A stretch of DNA of 64,000 nucleotides from Thermoplasma sp. Kam2015 (GTDB taxonomy: Archaea; Thermoplasmatota; Thermoplasmata; Thermoplasmatales; Thermoplasmataceae): positions 1 through 64,000 of the forward strand of contig NZ_QJSM01000024.1 in the NCBI RefSeq assembly GCF_003205235.1, read 5' to 3'. The position numbers and the translations under genes are program-made. The notes below the pieces were generated by a model. That model was not told where the DNA came from and ran no database searches. It worked only from the letters and a program-made list of their open reading frames with translations. How positions within the stretch are numbered: the stretch's first letter is position 1; every line of letters begins with the position of its first letter. Shown piece after piece: positions 7,476 to 14,264 of the stretch.

Positions 7476-8435
7476 ATGTCCCTGATGTCGATCCGGATCA
7501 AACTGGGCAGCCTTGCTGTTGGTGTTGCCATATTCGCCATAGGATTCGGCATAATCTACGGTATAATGTATTATATTGGTTTCAACATTGGCGTTTTAGC
7601 GCTCCTCATTATACTAGCGCCGATATTCATAATTATGGATATCTTGCAGTGGCTGTTCGGTCCATATATGATCGGCGCGGTGTACAGAACACACAGGATA
7701 ACGCCGGATGAGCCTGAATATACCATGTTGAATTCAATAGTCAGCGAGGTGGCGAAAAGCAATAAAATCAAGACACCTGATATATACATAGCTGAAGTAG
7801 ATATTCCGAATGCATTCGCCTATGGTTCGCCAATTGCCGGCAGACGAATCGCAGTGACAAGAGGCCTTCTCCGGATCCTCGATCCTGAAGAGATAAAGGC
7901 TGTGATCGGACATGAGATGGGACATCTCAGGCACAGGGATGTCGAGATGCTATTGGCAGTTGGACTTATCCCAACGCTAATATTCTATTTCGGATATACT
8001 TTGCTATTCTCAGATGGCAGAGGAAGAAATGCGGGCGGCATATTGTTGCTTGCCATAGTTGCAATCGTGGCCAGTTTCCTCTTCAGATTCCTCATACTTG
8101 CCTTCAATAGGATGCGTGAGAGTTATGCTGATATAAACTCCGCTCTCACAGTAGATGGTGGTGCAGATAAGCTGCAGACGGCACTTGCAAAAATTGTTTC
8201 AGCAACTGGTCACACTGGTTATTCCTTCAGGCGAAGACGAAAGAATACCTCCAGCAATCTCACAGAAATGCTATTCTTCAGCAATCCTGACGTTTCTGAA
8301 GCAGGGGATTACAGAAAGCTGGTTGAGGAATGGAAGACAGCTAAAGTTTCTCTATTCTCGGATTTCTTCTCAGATCATCCTCATCCAGCCAAGAGGATAC
8401 AGCGACTGGAAAGAATGAAGGACCGAAAAATGTGA
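7476..8435 (+). CDS. htpX: HtpX-like membrane zinc metallopeptidase (M48)
   Basis: A membrane-bound protease for quality control of membrane proteins. Two N-terminal helices (~12-35 and 38-60) are followed by the catalytic HEMGH (146-150), two further hydrophobic segments (~158-177 and 187-210) and the third zinc ligand E215 in RESYAD. Length (319) is normal. ATG 7476 is ~26 bases after a TATA-like CTTAAATCC. The last codon and stop (ATG TGA) lie at the boundary with a TnpB-less IS element: bases 8432-8435 belong to the element. In the reconstructed empty site the gene would read ATA TAA instead. Confidence 0.92.
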   Translation: MSLMSIRIKLGSLAVGVAIFAIGFGIIYGIMYYIGFNIGVLALLIILAPIFIIMDILQWLFGPYMIGAVYRTHRITPDEPEYTMLNSIVSEVAKSNKIKTPDIYIAEVDIPNAFAYGSPIAGRRIAVTRGLLRILDPEEIKAVIGHEMGHLRHRDVEMLLAVGLIPTLIFYFGYTLLFSDGRGRNAGGILLLAIVAIVASFLFRFLILAFNRMRESYADINSALTVDGGADKLQTALAKIVSATGHTGYSFRRRRKNTSSNLTEMLFFSNPDVSEAGDYRKLVEEWKTAKVSLFSDFFSDHPHPAKRIQRLERMKDRKM

Positions 8436-8700
8436 GCTACTCCTAAGCTAAAGCATCAGAGCTTCCTTTCATCGAAGAGACCTCTACCCTTCCGGACATC
8501 CGTACAAGCCATATATCACTATAACCACAGGCGTGTATTCGGATCTCATCGATCCTACTCAGTTATCATCCACTTGGTTTTCATGGATGATACAAGAGAA
8601 TATGGGAAGACGATCTATAGATATTTCCATTGAAGGAAGTCGATTTATCTCTTGTACGAAGAGAGAGTTTTACTGCTTCCCTCAAACTCCTAACTTTTTT
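8432..8700 (-). mobile_element. TnpB-less IS605-type element (copy B, 269 bp)
   Basis: The right end is GTGAGCTACTCC at 8432, followed by an omega-RNA-like segment (CGTACAAGCC, CCACAGGCGTG, GGATCTCATCGATCC). A central perfect 8-base inverted repeat is at 8565-8572 and 8584-8591. The left end carries the conserved TTGAGGGAAG arm and reaches 8700. The flank on the element strand is TTTAT (8701-8705). The left end also holds a perfect small hairpin (TCTCTT/AAGAGA). Its TGA is now the stop codon of htpX. No ORF inside looks coding. Confidence 0.85.
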
Positions 8701-8766
8701 ATAAAATTAGAAGACAAAGTGATCAACTTTATATCCAATCTTTGAGTAGTGCTAAAAATCTAATAT

Positions 8767-10857
8767 ATGATTTATTATCCCTACAGCATGCTGGCAGAGC
8801 GGTCATGGAATCTGGCCATTTCCGTAACTCTAATAGTTTATGCCTATATGGCATGGCTATCGGTCGGTTACTACGATCTCTCTGCACTCGTTATGTCATG
8901 GATTCTGATAATCATATCTTCACTTCTTGCGATAAATTCTACCACAAGATTCAATCCAAAGATCAGAACTACGCTCATTTATTCTGCCCTGCTCATATCC
9001 ATGCTTTTGCTCATCTCGATCTCCCTAAGATACGTGGCCAGCTATTATCTTGAGGATGAAATTCTGATCCAGACAAATGCGGCCTATCTCTTCCTGCACG
9101 GAGAAGACCCGTATCTGAAGATAAACATGCTGAGGCTTTTCTCCACAAGCCAGGTACCGCTTTTCAATACGCCAACGCTTGATGGTGGATATGTTTATTT
9201 TCTCATTTATCCTGGACTGTCGGTCCTTCTGTTTGTTCCAGCCTTATTATTTCATTTCAATCCATCATATGTTATAATAATTTTCAATTTTATATCGATA
9301 ATCCTGCTTGTATACTATTACAGAAAGAACAATCTCAAATTGCAGACACCACTTATAATAACAGATATGATGGTCTCCGCCTTCTACATAGGATTCACGA
9401 TCGCTGGTGTATCCTCCATAATATGGGTAACCCTGCTCGCCCTTGCATACGTATTCAGAGAAAAGCCATATATATCCGGCATCTTTCTTGGATTGTCTAT
9501 TGCCTACAAGCAGGATCCGGTCATAGTTGTTCCGTTCCTTCTCTATTTCATTCTGAAGGAATACGGCGGCATGCATGAGTTAAAATTCATACTGGCCTCA
9601 GCTGTGTCCTTCCTTGCAGTTAATCTTCCCTTCATAATAATGAATCCCAGCGCATGGCTGATCTCCATATTAAGCGTCGCTAACCAGAATATAATAGGCG
9701 TTGGATCTGGACCATCAATATTATCCTTCGCCGGATACTATCCAATAGATCCTCTGTATTTCTCGATCCTGGTAATGGCCATGGAAGTTTTCCTTTTTTT
9801 CGTCTACGTTAGGTATTACAATGCATTAAAATACGCATTCTTTGCGTTTCCCATACTGGTGATGCTCTTCAACTTCAGGGTTTTAATAAGTTATCTTATG
9901 TACTGGCCATTTTTGATAATGCTCATCCTGCCTGACATAAAGATCAGTGAGAATATGATTAAACCCCTGCATATCAACAGGGCTCACTTCCTCGCATTTT
10001 CTGTCGTCCTTATAATCATAACCGGTGGCTTTGCCATACCCATCCATTCTCAAAATGGCGACATCAAAATTGCTTCAATAAATGCCTATTACGATAATAT
10101 CTCCATACCAAATGTCATAGATGAGATGAACATATCCATGATCTATGAACCAGGAAATGGATATCCTACGACGATACCCGTATACTTCCGCATCCTCACA
10201 GATTCTGGTTTACAGAACTACAACATAAATGGGCTTCTATGGCATACAAACCTGTACTTGCATCCTGGGAGGAACAACCTCACCATATATCCGGATAATT
10301 ATTTTGGACTGCTACCATCCAACACTTCTTTTGTGATCATCGCATATTATGACCATATGCAGACCGCATACAGAAGCAATGGCCTCTATGCTGTACCGAA
10401 ATATCCAATACCAAACCCCATGCTGATGTATCCTGAATACTCTTCAACTGAACCCTTCCCAGGATGGCATGCCACGAAAGGCGAGGGTAAACTTGTTTAT
10501 TTGGCCAACGGATTTACCTTTAACTCTACAGAATGGTATAATTTAACATCAGACCAGTTTCAGGTATCATCCGATCTTGAAAATTTAACATTGCAGTACA
10601 ACATCAGTGGATACGGTATCTACGGATATACAATATCATTCGGAAACTTCAACTATACAGTCTCATCGGAATATTTTTCCTTCAATTCCAATTACACCCA
10701 TCTCATCGTGAACAATAGGATGCATGCGATCAGTTTCTCGAATGCAACCAGATTTGCAATGGAGTACAAATGGCCGATGCAGAGCGCGGAACTTTCCTTT
10801 TTCATCGGCCCTGATTCTGGGGTGACGGTGAAGTATGAAGGTGCGGAATATGAATGA
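8767..10857 (+). CDS. Polytopic GT-C-like membrane glycosyltransferase (paralogue 1)
   Basis: A 696-residue protein with about a dozen hydrophobic helices in the first ~430 residues and a C-terminal ~260-residue extracytoplasmic domain rich in N-x-S/T. The acidic LEDE (~95-98) in the first outer loop followed by HGEDPY (111-116), and GLSIAYKQDPVIVVPF (~240), are typical of GT-C fold polyprenyl-phosphate-sugar transferases (GT87/ArnT-like). It is most likely a transferase adding sugars from lipid carriers outside the cell. Acceptor unknown. The next gene is a paralogue in the same order of motifs, overlapping by 23 bases. Confidence 0.65.
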   Translation: MIYYPYSMLAERSWNLAISVTLIVYAYMAWLSVGYYDLSALVMSWILIIISSLLAINSTTRFNPKIRTTLIYSALLISMLLLISISLRYVASYYLEDEILIQTNAAYLFLHGEDPYLKINMLRLFSTSQVPLFNTPTLDGGYVYFLIYPGLSVLLFVPALLFHFNPSYVIIIFNFISIILLVYYYRKNNLKLQTPLIITDMMVSAFYIGFTIAGVSSIIWVTLLALAYVFREKPYISGIFLGLSIAYKQDPVIVVPFLLYFILKEYGGMHELKFILASAVSFLAVNLPFIIMNPSAWLISILSVANQNIIGVGSGPSILSFAGYYPIDPLYFSILVMAMEVFLFFVYVRYYNALKYAFFAFPILVMLFNFRVLISYLMYWPFLIMLILPDIKISENMIKPLHINRAHFLAFSVVLIIITGGFAIPIHSQNGDIKIASINAYYDNISIPNVIDEMNISMIYEPGNGYPTTIPVYFRILTDSGLQNYNINGLLWHTNLYLHPGRNNLTIYPDNYFGLLPSNTSFVIIAYYDHMQTAYRSNGLYAVPKYPIPNPMLMYPEYSSTEPFPGWHATKGEGKLVYLANGFTFNSTEWYNLTSDQFQVSSDLENLTLQYNISGYGIYGYTISFGNFNYTVSSEYFSFNSNYTHLIVNNRMHAISFSNATRFAMEYKWPMQSAELSFFIGPDSGVTVKYEGAEYE

Positions 10858-12763
10858 TGACGATCTGTGGTCAACCGTGAGACGCATAGAGTATCTTGGC
10901 TTCACAGTGATAGCGTATATGATCGCATACTATCTCTGGACCGTCTACGGCTATTTGGATCTCTACATCGATCTGCTTCAGTGGACACTATCCATAGCTG
11001 GAATATTCGTTGCGATATACGCGCTCACAGGCCATTCCATGAAGATATCACGCAGAACTGTTTACATACTTCTTGCTGGTAACAGTGCGCTCATACTCAC
11101 GATCATCTTAAGATTTGGATTCCTTGATATCACATTCGATCCTGTGATACTCTTCCTTGCTTTTGTGGACTATTATCTTGTGCATGATATGGTGACTGAA
11201 AAACATGGAAATCCAAGGAAATTTGCCTATATATTTGCCATCGTGACCGTATCTCTCCTATCCGTCATATCGGCCGCGATGTACTCCAACTATGTTGCTG
11301 CCACGATTGCAGTTGTTCTAATTGCGCTGAGCATACTGTCATACTTCAGGTTTTCCGCCCTAATTTATATGGCCATCGTCGGTTCGGTCATATTCCTCGC
11401 GCTCTCGATCTTACCGCTATATCCTAGGTTTGGAACTGACGAACTTGCTCTGGACTACTATGCAGCATTGATGATACTGCATGGAATGAATCCATATTCC
11501 GCGCATGTTATGAGTGGAGCATTCAAATCTTTGCATTTTCCGCTGTACATGACCACCCCCATGGCCACAGGCGGCTATGTTGAAAACTTTTCTTATCCAG
11601 TGCTGGCAGCCATAATGTTCATGCCGTCGGTGATCATGCACTTCCCCCCGACGCTCGTCATCCTCTCATTCACCATTGCCATATACCTGATGGTGGCTAT
11701 CTATTTTTTCAGAAGAAAGATGGTAGTATCCTCGATTCTCTCCATCGCCATACTTGCGGTGAACATAAACATCATCAATTTTGCGGATGGATCCGTTCCA
11801 GACGCTGCCTGGGCTGCATTTCTTACTGCTTCAATTATGCTTATAGAGAAACCTCGTTACTCCGCCCTTCTGTATGGCTTATCAACATCGATAAAGCAAA
11901 TACCATGGATTATCTTACCATTTCTGCTCTATTTCGTCTATCGCGAGAGGGGTATCAGAAATGCTGTCGAGTATCTTCTGATCTCTGCTGGTGTCTTCAT
12001 AATCACCAATATAAGTTTCATTATATCGAATCCACATTCATTCATTTCGTCCATTCTATCCCCTGAGACCGCACAGCTGATCGGTGTCGGACAGGGAATA
12101 AGCATCATCAGCATAGCCGGCTACTATTCACTTGAACCGCTATATTTTACCATAATGTTTGTCTTCTCGATACTCTTTTTCTTATTCATATACATAAGAC
12201 ATTTTGAAACGATGAAATACACATTCCTGATCTTTCCGCTCCTCATATTCTTTTTCAATTTCAGAGATCTCTACAATTACCTCATATTCTGGCCCTTCAT
12301 GGCCTTTGCATTTCTTCCATATCTAAAAGGCAGGAACGCCAATAAGAGCTTCAGGATTGGTCTCAAACGGATAATGACCTACTCCATGGTGTTCATAGCT
12401 GTGGCGGCCATTATAGCGGTTCCTATGCATGAACACAGCCAATTCTCAATATCTTCTGTCTCAAATATCAATAGAACCTCGTATTACGTTATCGGGATGA
12501 ACGTCAACGTTTCATATACTGGTGAGCATCCAATCCCACTGGAATTCAGATTTCTGCCCTATGGATATTTGGGAAATCTCAACGGTTTCATATGGTCCGT
12601 GAAGTCTTATACAGCTGGATCCAACTGGATAAACTTCACGATCGTGCCCTCCTATCAGCAGTCCATGCTGAATGCCAATTATTCCTATAAGCTAATTGCC
12701 TACTACGGAGAACAACAGGCATTCTATGATCTCAATTTGCCCTCTATGATCTACGGTGAGTGA
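10835..12763 (+). CDS. Polytopic GT-C-like membrane glycosyltransferase (paralogue 2)
   Basis: It shares the architecture of the upstream gene: an acidic TDE in the first long outer loop, HGMNPYSAHVM, YVENFSYPVLAA, GLSTSIKQIPWIILPF and a C-terminal outer domain, here shorter. The pair therefore arose by tandem duplication and probably acts on related substrates. ATG 10835 overlaps the upstream gene by 23 bases. ATG 10850 (overlap ATGAATGA) is an alternative. The stop TGA (12761-12763) lies inside the end of the IS element that follows. Without the insertion the gene would end GAA TAA, giving the same last residue (Glu). Confidence 0.65.
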   Translation: MKVRNMNDDDLWSTVRRIEYLGFTVIAYMIAYYLWTVYGYLDLYIDLLQWTLSIAGIFVAIYALTGHSMKISRRTVYILLAGNSALILTIILRFGFLDITFDPVILFLAFVDYYLVHDMVTEKHGNPRKFAYIFAIVTVSLLSVISAAMYSNYVAATIAVVLIALSILSYFRFSALIYMAIVGSVIFLALSILPLYPRFGTDELALDYYAALMILHGMNPYSAHVMSGAFKSLHFPLYMTTPMATGGYVENFSYPVLAAIMFMPSVIMHFPPTLVILSFTIAIYLMVAIYFFRRKMVVSSILSIAILAVNINIINFADGSVPDAAWAAFLTASIMLIEKPRYSALLYGLSTSIKQIPWIILPFLLYFVYRERGIRNAVEYLLISAGVFIITNISFIISNPHSFISSILSPETAQLIGVGQGISIISIAGYYSLEPLYFTIMFVFSILFFLFIYIRHFETMKYTFLIFPLLIFFFNFRDLYNYLIFWPFMAFAFLPYLKGRNANKSFRIGLKRIMTYSMVFIAVAAIIAVPMHEHSQFSISSVSNINRTSYYVIGMNVNVSYTGEHPIPLEFRFLPYGYLGNLNGFIWSVKSYTAGSNWINFTIVPSYQQSMLNANYSYKLIAYYGEQQAFYDLNLPSMIYGE

Positions 12764-12930
12764 GCTACTCCTCAGCTGAAGCATCGGAGCTTCCTGATTC
12801 AACGACCGACCTCTGCCTGTACGGATATATTCCGTACAAGCCCGATGTTGCGATCTCCACAGGCGTGAATTCGGATCGCACCGATCCTACTTTTATAAGT
12901 CCGATCTTCCTTATGTTCTTGGCGGCATTC
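12760..12930 (-). ncRNA. Candidate omega-RNA (reRNA) scaffold at the element's right end
   Basis: TnpB guide RNAs derive from the 3' end of tnpB and the right end. Here this stretch holds, on the minus strand, a GGATCG/CGATCC hairpin, a perfect TGTACGGA/TCCGTACA hairpin, GAAGC/GCTTC and a terminal AGCT/AGCT pair. The same elements are kept in the TnpB-less copies although they encode no protein, which argues for RNA-level function. The guide would be the ~16-20 bases beyond the end, that is the antisense of 12740-12759. The 5' limit is a guess. Confidence 0.6.
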
Positions 12931-13994
12931 AGATCCCTGTCTATAGTTAATCCGCACACATTGCAATGATATATGCGATCTGATAACTTCAGATCATGCT
13001 TTACGTTACCGCATCTTGAACATATCTTAGATGATGGATCGAATCTTCCTATCTCTATTATATTCTTTCCATATTTTTCTGCTTTCCATTCCAGTTTCTG
13101 CTTGAAGGAATAGAAAGAAACATCACTTAGACTCTTCGATATATGATGGTTCTGCATCATTCCATGTACGTTCAGATCTTCGATGACTATGGTATCGTAC
13201 TGCTTGGCTATCGCAGTCGATATTTTATCATCGAAGTCTTCACGCATGTTTCTCAGCTTCATGTACTCCTTCTGTAATTTAAGTATATGCTTGCTTCTAT
13301 TCTTCGATCCATTCTGCTTTCTCGATAACTGTTTTTGTAATCGTCTTATTCTTTTCTCTACCTTCTTTATGAATCCTGGATTCTCTATTGCTATACCATT
13401 CGATAAGGTTGCAAATTTTTCGATGCCTAGATCTATACCAACGGAGTTCTCTTCAGATAATGGTTTCTTCTCTGGTAGTTCTTCCTCATTTTCATATATA
13501 ATAGAGCAGTAATAGTATCCTGAATCCTTTGTTATTATTATCTCATTTATGTCCCTTATTTCTGATAGCTTATCTTTAGATCCCTTGAAGTATATGCCTT
13601 CAGAGAACTTTGGGAAATAGATCCTGTTTCCTTGAATTTTGATGTGCTGTGGTACTGCAAAGAATTCGTTCCTTTCCTTCTTCCTGAATCTTGGATGTTC
13701 TGCGTTCTTATGGAAGAAGTTCTTGAATGCATTATCGAGAAAGCGTAGAGACATCTGAAGTGATTGGGCGTTGATCTCGTACAGCCATGGATATTCCTTC
13801 TTGAGTTCGATGAGCATGTTATTTGTGTCGAAATAGTTCAGAGAAGATCTCTGTGCATCCCTATGCGTTATATAGTATTCATCCCTCCTTTTTAGAAAGT
13901 AATTGTATACGAATCTACAGCTGCCAAAGTGCTTCTCCAATAATATTTTCTGTCCTTCGTTTGGATACAGCTTTACTTTGGTGGCTGTTATCAC
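12765..13994 (-). CDS. tnpB: TnpB RNA-guided nuclease, full length
   Basis: 409 residues. N-terminal OrfB helix-turn-helix-like region (~1-45). RuvC-like nuclease with D188 in VGIDLG, E272 in VIEDLN and D352/D354 in TIDRDLNAAKNI. Zinc finger C325/C328 and C344/C347. All catalytic positions are intact. It starts at GTG 13994, with TATA-like AT-rich DNA at 14003-14031 inside the element. The last ~15 codons also form the right-end RNA structure. TnpB proteins cut DNA next to a TAM using the omega-RNA, favouring retention of the element after excision. Confidence 0.95.
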   Translation of the reverse strand: MITATKVKLYPNEGQKILLEKHFGSCRFVYNYFLKRRDEYYITHRDAQRSSLNYFDTNNMLIELKKEYPWLYEINAQSLQMSLRFLDNAFKNFFHKNAEHPRFRKKERNEFFAVPQHIKIQGNRIYFPKFSEGIYFKGSKDKLSEIRDINEIIITKDSGYYYCSIIYENEEELPEKKPLSEENSVGIDLGIEKFATLSNGIAIENPGFIKKVEKRIRRLQKQLSRKQNGSKNRSKHILKLQKEYMKLRNMREDFDDKISTAIAKQYDTIVIEDLNVHGMMQNHHISKSLSDVSFYSFKQKLEWKAEKYGKNIIEIGRFDPSSKICSRCGNVKHDLKLSDRIYHCNVCGLTIDRDLNAAKNIRKIGLIKVGSVRSEFTPVEIATSGLYGIYPYRQRSVVESGSSDASAEE

Positions 13995-14032
13995 TATCTA
14001 TAAGTATGGTAAATTGTTTATAAATATTTCCA

Positions 14033-14089
14033 TTGAGGGAAGTCCGTGTATCTCCTCCCTAAAGGTCGGAGTTTTACTGCTTCCCTCAA
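14033..14089 (-). repeat. Left-end inverted repeat of the IS605-type element
   Basis: A perfect 10-base repeat, TTGAGGGAAG (14033-14042) and CTTCCCTCAA (14080-14089), encloses a smaller CTCC/GGAG stem. The same arrangement recurs at 63798-63853 and in the small copies, where arm bases vary. It is probably the hairpin recognised by the transposase. Confidence 0.7.
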
Positions 14090-14264
14090 ACTCCTAACCT
14101 TCCTATAAAAGATCAGGGCATGGGATACAATATACATCTCGTGATGATCTGTATACTGGGAGCTTAAATAACGATACCTACAGATTTCAGTACATCCAAT
14201 CTTTCATTTATGGAAATGCTTCCTGAAATAATTTAGAACAATGTAGCTGCTATCGGAATCAATG

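Follow-up and report, generated by a model that had tools for sequence, protein, structure and literature searches.

When the terminal codons of a gene lie partly inside a mobile element, the question arises whether its stop codon is the gene's own or the element's, and by what route the one could have taken the place of the other. Such a case is provided by the htpX-like gene in a 64,000-nucleotide stretch of the Thermoplasma sp. Kam2015 genome (referred to as the window). This gene ends in AAA ATG TGA (ATG at 8430–8432 and TGA at 8433–8435), in which GTGA (8432–8435) constitutes the first four bases of a repeat that thereby supplies both the last base of the final sense codon and the stop itself. 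The initial annotation of this locus had described exactly this ending, and its sequence and coordinates were confirmed. It had furthermore pointed to a second case in the window with the same phase and the same tip, which corresponds to the insertion at 12760, and was right to consider the two as independent; its two element versions turned out to be a 269-bp form without tnpB (at htpX) and a 1345-bp form with tnpB (at 12760). The features of both loci are listed in Table 1.

Table 1. Coordinates in the window of the two stop-replacing elements, their host genes and related features
Feature	Position	Strand	Remarks
htpX-like M48 peptidase gene	7476–8435	+	ORF; Pfam Peptidase_M48, 1.1e-33
269-bp element without tnpB	8432–8700	– (orientation of tnpB in full-length copy)	PATE-like
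Element 3′ tip CTCAC (complement GTGAG)	8432–8436	–	Presumed right cleavage site; gives TGA stop
Segment also present in full-length copies (tnpB 3′ end plus right end)	8432–8563	–	Alignment
Left-end subterminal hairpin GAGTTT...AAACTC	8665–8689	–	
Landing motif TTTAT (complement ATAAA)	8701–8705	–	Kept beside left end
Second short copy	708–974	–	
642-aa membrane protein gene	10835–12763	+	End GA/G TGA (slash, element boundary); native GAA TAA seen in KMA_Bin19
Full-length tnpB-bearing element, 1345 bp	12760–14104	–	Tip forms stop of gene 10835–12763
TnpB, 409 aa	12765–13994	–	Stop codon 5 bases before element end
Landing motif TTTAT of full-length copy	14105–14109	–	

Both ends of the 269-bp element align with both ends of the full-length element at 12760–14104, so that the short form corresponds to the ends of a solo-TnpB element minus the gene. 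The TnpB of the full-length copy matched the OrfB_IS605 (5.3e-28), TNB (3.7e-22) and HTH_OrfB (8.4e-16) profiles. By sequence, the element family belongs to the IS200/IS605 superfamily (IS1341-type, solo TnpB), and the short element at htpX is a tnpB-less derivative of such a solo-TnpB IS605/IS1341 element. As in a PATE, its ends are common to an IS605-type element and its length is too small for a transposase. The fold of the left-end hairpin gave a z of –3.35 in the full copy and of –1.26 in the short copy, and the fold of the right end was no better than that of shuffled sequences. Several full-length tnpB copies are present in the window's genome, next to a single Y1 TnpA gene, which was rejected as the obvious partner because it resides in another element with different ends. 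This lone TnpA gene, at L021 (G000:C20:42931), lies beside a divergent TnpB-like gene. No transposase for the abundant element family was identified in the window's genome, and mobilisation would therefore be either extinct or in trans, with TnpA probably supplied from elsewhere.

The behaviour of the element was surveyed in the stretches around its copies in Thermoplasma genomes. The nearest relatives compared were the Thermoplasma MAG KMA_Bin19 and Thermoplasma sp. FL, which are both metagenome assemblies; many contigs end inside element copies. Two further genomes of the genus are those that we take to be the T. acidophilum and T. volcanium (GSS1) type genomes, and in the latter (G004) the element family seems absent or nearly so (4 weak pattern matches versus 3 in a reversed control). 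The tip occurs about 70 times in the window's genome (73 times when up to 5 mismatches are allowed). Each base of the TGA at tip positions 2–4 is kept in 129 of 134 copies, and the TCAC of the tip is invariant in a 32-copy alignment. The htpX stop is therefore no chance match, a reading that we rejected with the tip conserved in about 130 copies. On the strand complementary to tnpB, the commonest words at a fixed offset after the conserved right-end CTAAC were ATAAA (33 of 90 right ends) and TTAAA (14), the remaining right ends being mostly shifted by one base. The motif beyond this end is thus WTAA(A), corresponding to TTTAW (TTTAT/TTTAA) on the tnpB strand.

Direct evidence for stop replacement came from two sites at which KMA_Bin19 lacks the element. 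At the 12760 site, KMA_Bin19 reads ATC TAT GGC GAA TAA AGG ATC, and the window reads ATC TAC GGT GA/GTGA.../ATAAAAGATC (slashes marking the element boundaries). At the gene of an HTH regulator, KMA_Bin19 reads GTT TCA TAA AAG AATC, and the window's genome reads GTT TC/GTGA.../ATAAAAGAATC. GAA TAA was thus changed to GAG TGA and TCA TAA to TCG TGA, leaving both proteins unchanged. These two empty alleles therefore place the W of WTAA in the flank, make the boundary exact and show that no bases were duplicated. Together with the motif counts, they indicate that the element inserts exactly before ATAAA, without target duplication and without terminal inverted repeats. In KMA_Bin19, moreover, the MarR gene ends in TT/G TGA at the codon where its T. 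acidophilum orthologue stops, and an HTH gene of isolate FL (G002) ends in AT/G TGA at the stop codon position of its Thermoplasma orthologues.

From the two cases in the window, the initial annotation had suggested a general rule and proposed to compare the phase across copies. The empty alleles at two genes bear out the fixed-phase exchange of a native TAA for the element tip, but not all copies behave in this way: same-phase captures recur, yet the insertion in the MarR gene of the window's genome (L171:1928) is in phase 1 and truncates the protein after adding GELPLS and a stop, and other genes are interrupted. Near-3′ elements are in fact found in MarR in both species, at different codons (truncating at L171:1928 and stop-preserving at KMA_Bin19 L170:1959). 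Apparent interruptions affect a PHP-domain phosphoesterase-like gene (L086:2121, minus) and a C69-like gene (L091:3131, minus). A number of candidates were discarded. The Mg-chelatase-like gene of L209 was rejected as another clean capture, since its site has lost about 38 bases of spacer. The open frames of phase 2 at L026, L051 and L140:5952, although long, were left uncounted, as they showed no convincing gene, and the hit to the short element at L202:808 proved spurious, lying within a gene. At three copies, the TTTAA on the tnpB strand still holds the unaltered TAA stop of the adjacent gene, as is the case at 975–979 in the window. There, the second short copy of the window directly follows a SIS isomerase-like gene (975–1523, minus), whose TAA stop forms part of the landing motif.

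Taken together, we consider it very probable that the stop swap is the passive result of two similar cleavage sites that stand in one register. In this mechanism, a derivative of a solo-TnpB IS200/IS605 element would insert in single-stranded form on the 3′ side of TTTAW, single-strand transposition being what its family membership suggests. The motif stays in the flank at the left end of the element, and the similar five-base sequence CTCAC, the presumed cleavage site, forms the other end. Because motif and tip are equally far from the downstream flank, the tip replaces the motif position for position on the complementary strand, which changes from ATAAA to GTGAG. A gene that ends in NNA TAA within the motif would then end in NNG TGA, with its stop kept and the preceding base turned into G. 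This swap would normally be silent, because NNA and NNG are synonymous for all amino-acid codon pairs except ATA/ATG, and htpX would be the one visible case of a residue change. Insertions elsewhere in genes would mostly be removed by selection.

For htpX itself, joining 8431 to 8701 in silico yields AAA ATA TAA, in agreement with the empty site reconstructed in the initial annotation. The native htpX stop would accordingly have been the TAA within the landing motif at 8701–8705, and the last residue would have changed from Ile to Met. As none of the five Thermoplasma genomes examined yielded an empty htpX allele, this residue change is given here as probable rather than as observed. The same finding could be taken to mean that the native stop lay elsewhere, so that the insertion shortened or lengthened the gene and the neat empty site is coincidental. 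The truncating MarR insertion and the variable length of htpX C-termini are compatible with such a history: the T. acidophilum gene (KLKMS) stops about two codons earlier, and that of isolate FL (KLKMQESGLKIE) about five codons later. Orthologues ending at another point had been named beforehand as what would refute the stop replacement. They were encountered only in these two distant relatives, which have unrelated 3′ sequence and whose length differences are C-terminal drift, whereas the 97% identical HtpX of KMA_Bin19 has the element at the same codon. The KMA_Bin19 gene ends in AGA GAA AG/GTGA.../ATAAAAATGG and reconstructs to GAA AGA TAA. With elements at the same htpX point, the reconstruction thus gives xxA TAA in both species, and does so from different flanks (AT/ATAAA and AG/ATAAA). 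As the empty alleles at the two other genes moreover show the same event directly, we give a native stop elsewhere little chance.

The htpX elements of KMA_Bin19 and the window are only 78–80% identical, with 93–95% identity in the flanking htpX sequence, and elements common by descent at two other sites are about 95–97% identical between these genomes. The two htpX elements may have inserted into the same motif on separate occasions, or conversion may have replaced one of them. Shared points with flanks that are 92–97% alike and elements that are 78–84% alike comprise htpX (8432–8700 and KMA_Bin19 L140:12549–12810), L055/L179 and L043/L181; other shared copies are about 95–97% alike between the two close species. 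Such diverged elements at shared points may reflect separate insertions, conversion between copies or repeat assembly error.

The presence of the element at the htpX point in both close species might in turn hint that it is retained there for regulation, by providing a 3′ UTR, a terminator or an antisense TnpB guide RNA. Judging from its position, with which its sequence conservation agrees, the segment 8432–8563 would correspond to the TnpB guide RNA (omega RNA), and its guide would then be complementary to the 3′ end of the htpX transcript; a T-rich end (TTTTTT) is present on the htpX strand. However, the low identity of the two species' copies argues against such a retained function, as does the lack of covariation support for the RNA fold: no covarying pairs or compensatory changes were found for the guide-RNA consensus fold, and no Rfam match for a guide RNA was found within the window. 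A regulatory use is therefore regarded as highly improbable.

Returning to the passive swap, the rule concerns register and not targeting. That two of the five copies in the window occupy a stop codon could nevertheless suggest an element with an active preference for stop codons or the 3′ ends of genes, for example via transcription or termination structures. Among the ATAAA/TTAAA sites in 255 kb, 20 were located on a sense-strand stop and 616 were intergenic, so that 3.1% of neutral landings are expected on stops (a null based on simple codon-score gene calls). Over four species, the observed share was somewhat higher (8 of 134 copies, P = 0.06), and 8 of the 84 two-ended copies qualified, versus about 4% expected, when stops kept on the other strand were included. 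Genome-wide in the window's genome, however, only 3 of 73 copies had captured a stop (P = 0.40), the majority of copies are intergenic (66 of the 84 two-ended ones), and a mild excess is to be expected if 3′ ends are the least harmful landing place. Active stop-codon targeting was therefore rejected as very unlikely, the 3.1% among neutral motif sites being close to the observed share. Coding sequence accounts for about 60% of the motif sites, yet no more than about six of the 84 two-ended copies were found within a gene of the same orientation, a sign that landings elsewhere are strongly selected against.

These observations show how a mobile element can occupy the stop of a gene with little or no damage, which bears on the persistence of IS605-type elements in compact genomes. 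They also call for caution in annotation, as the stop of a gene may belong to a transposon. The predicted base change is exact (NNA TAA to NNG TGA), and any genome that carries IS605-type elements lends itself to a check. A further-reaching version, in which the likeness of tip and motif has been selected as a safe landing and IS200/IS605 elements with TTTAW or TTAC motifs systematically turn TAA stops into TGA, appears unlikely to us.

A literature search restricted largely to openly accessible journals returned no published description of stop replacement by IS200/IS605 elements. The closest parallels to the full-length element are the TnpB elements of Sulfolobus islandicus, for which the TAM motifs TTTAT (solo tnpB) and TTTAA (tnpA plus tnpB) are reported (PMC10640517). 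Like SisTnpB1, the Thermoplasma elements combine an OrfB/TnpB gene with a TNB domain, a TTTAT/TTTAA motif at the left end and a conserved right end in guide-RNA position; unlike it, they represent a different lineage, and their guide-RNA role is putative. Stop replacement is not mentioned in the sections of the SisTnpB1 account consulted (PMC10640517). The short element in turn resembles the PATEs of Haloquadratum walsbyi, which are transposase-free, have near-terminal palindromes without terminal inverted repeats, cause no target duplication, derive from IS605-type transposons by deletion of the core and occur in many copies without an intact tnpA (PMC3119063). The Thermoplasma family differs in having its own sequence, and the sections of the PATE description consulted do not mention stop-codon replacement (PMC3119063). 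Group A IStrons have their stop where a self-splicing intron within genes begins, whereas the Thermoplasma element replaces the natural stop of a gene, and does so with its other end (PMC4227781). IS608 of Helicobacter pylori, finally, exemplifies this transposon class, in which the target motif remains at one end and the opposite end consists of a similar cleavage site: it inserts 3′ to TTAC, and TCAA, at which it is cleaved on the right, belongs to the element itself (PMC5934647). IS608 carries tnpA; the complement of its swap (GTAA to TTGA) again converts TAA into TGA in one register (PMC5934647).
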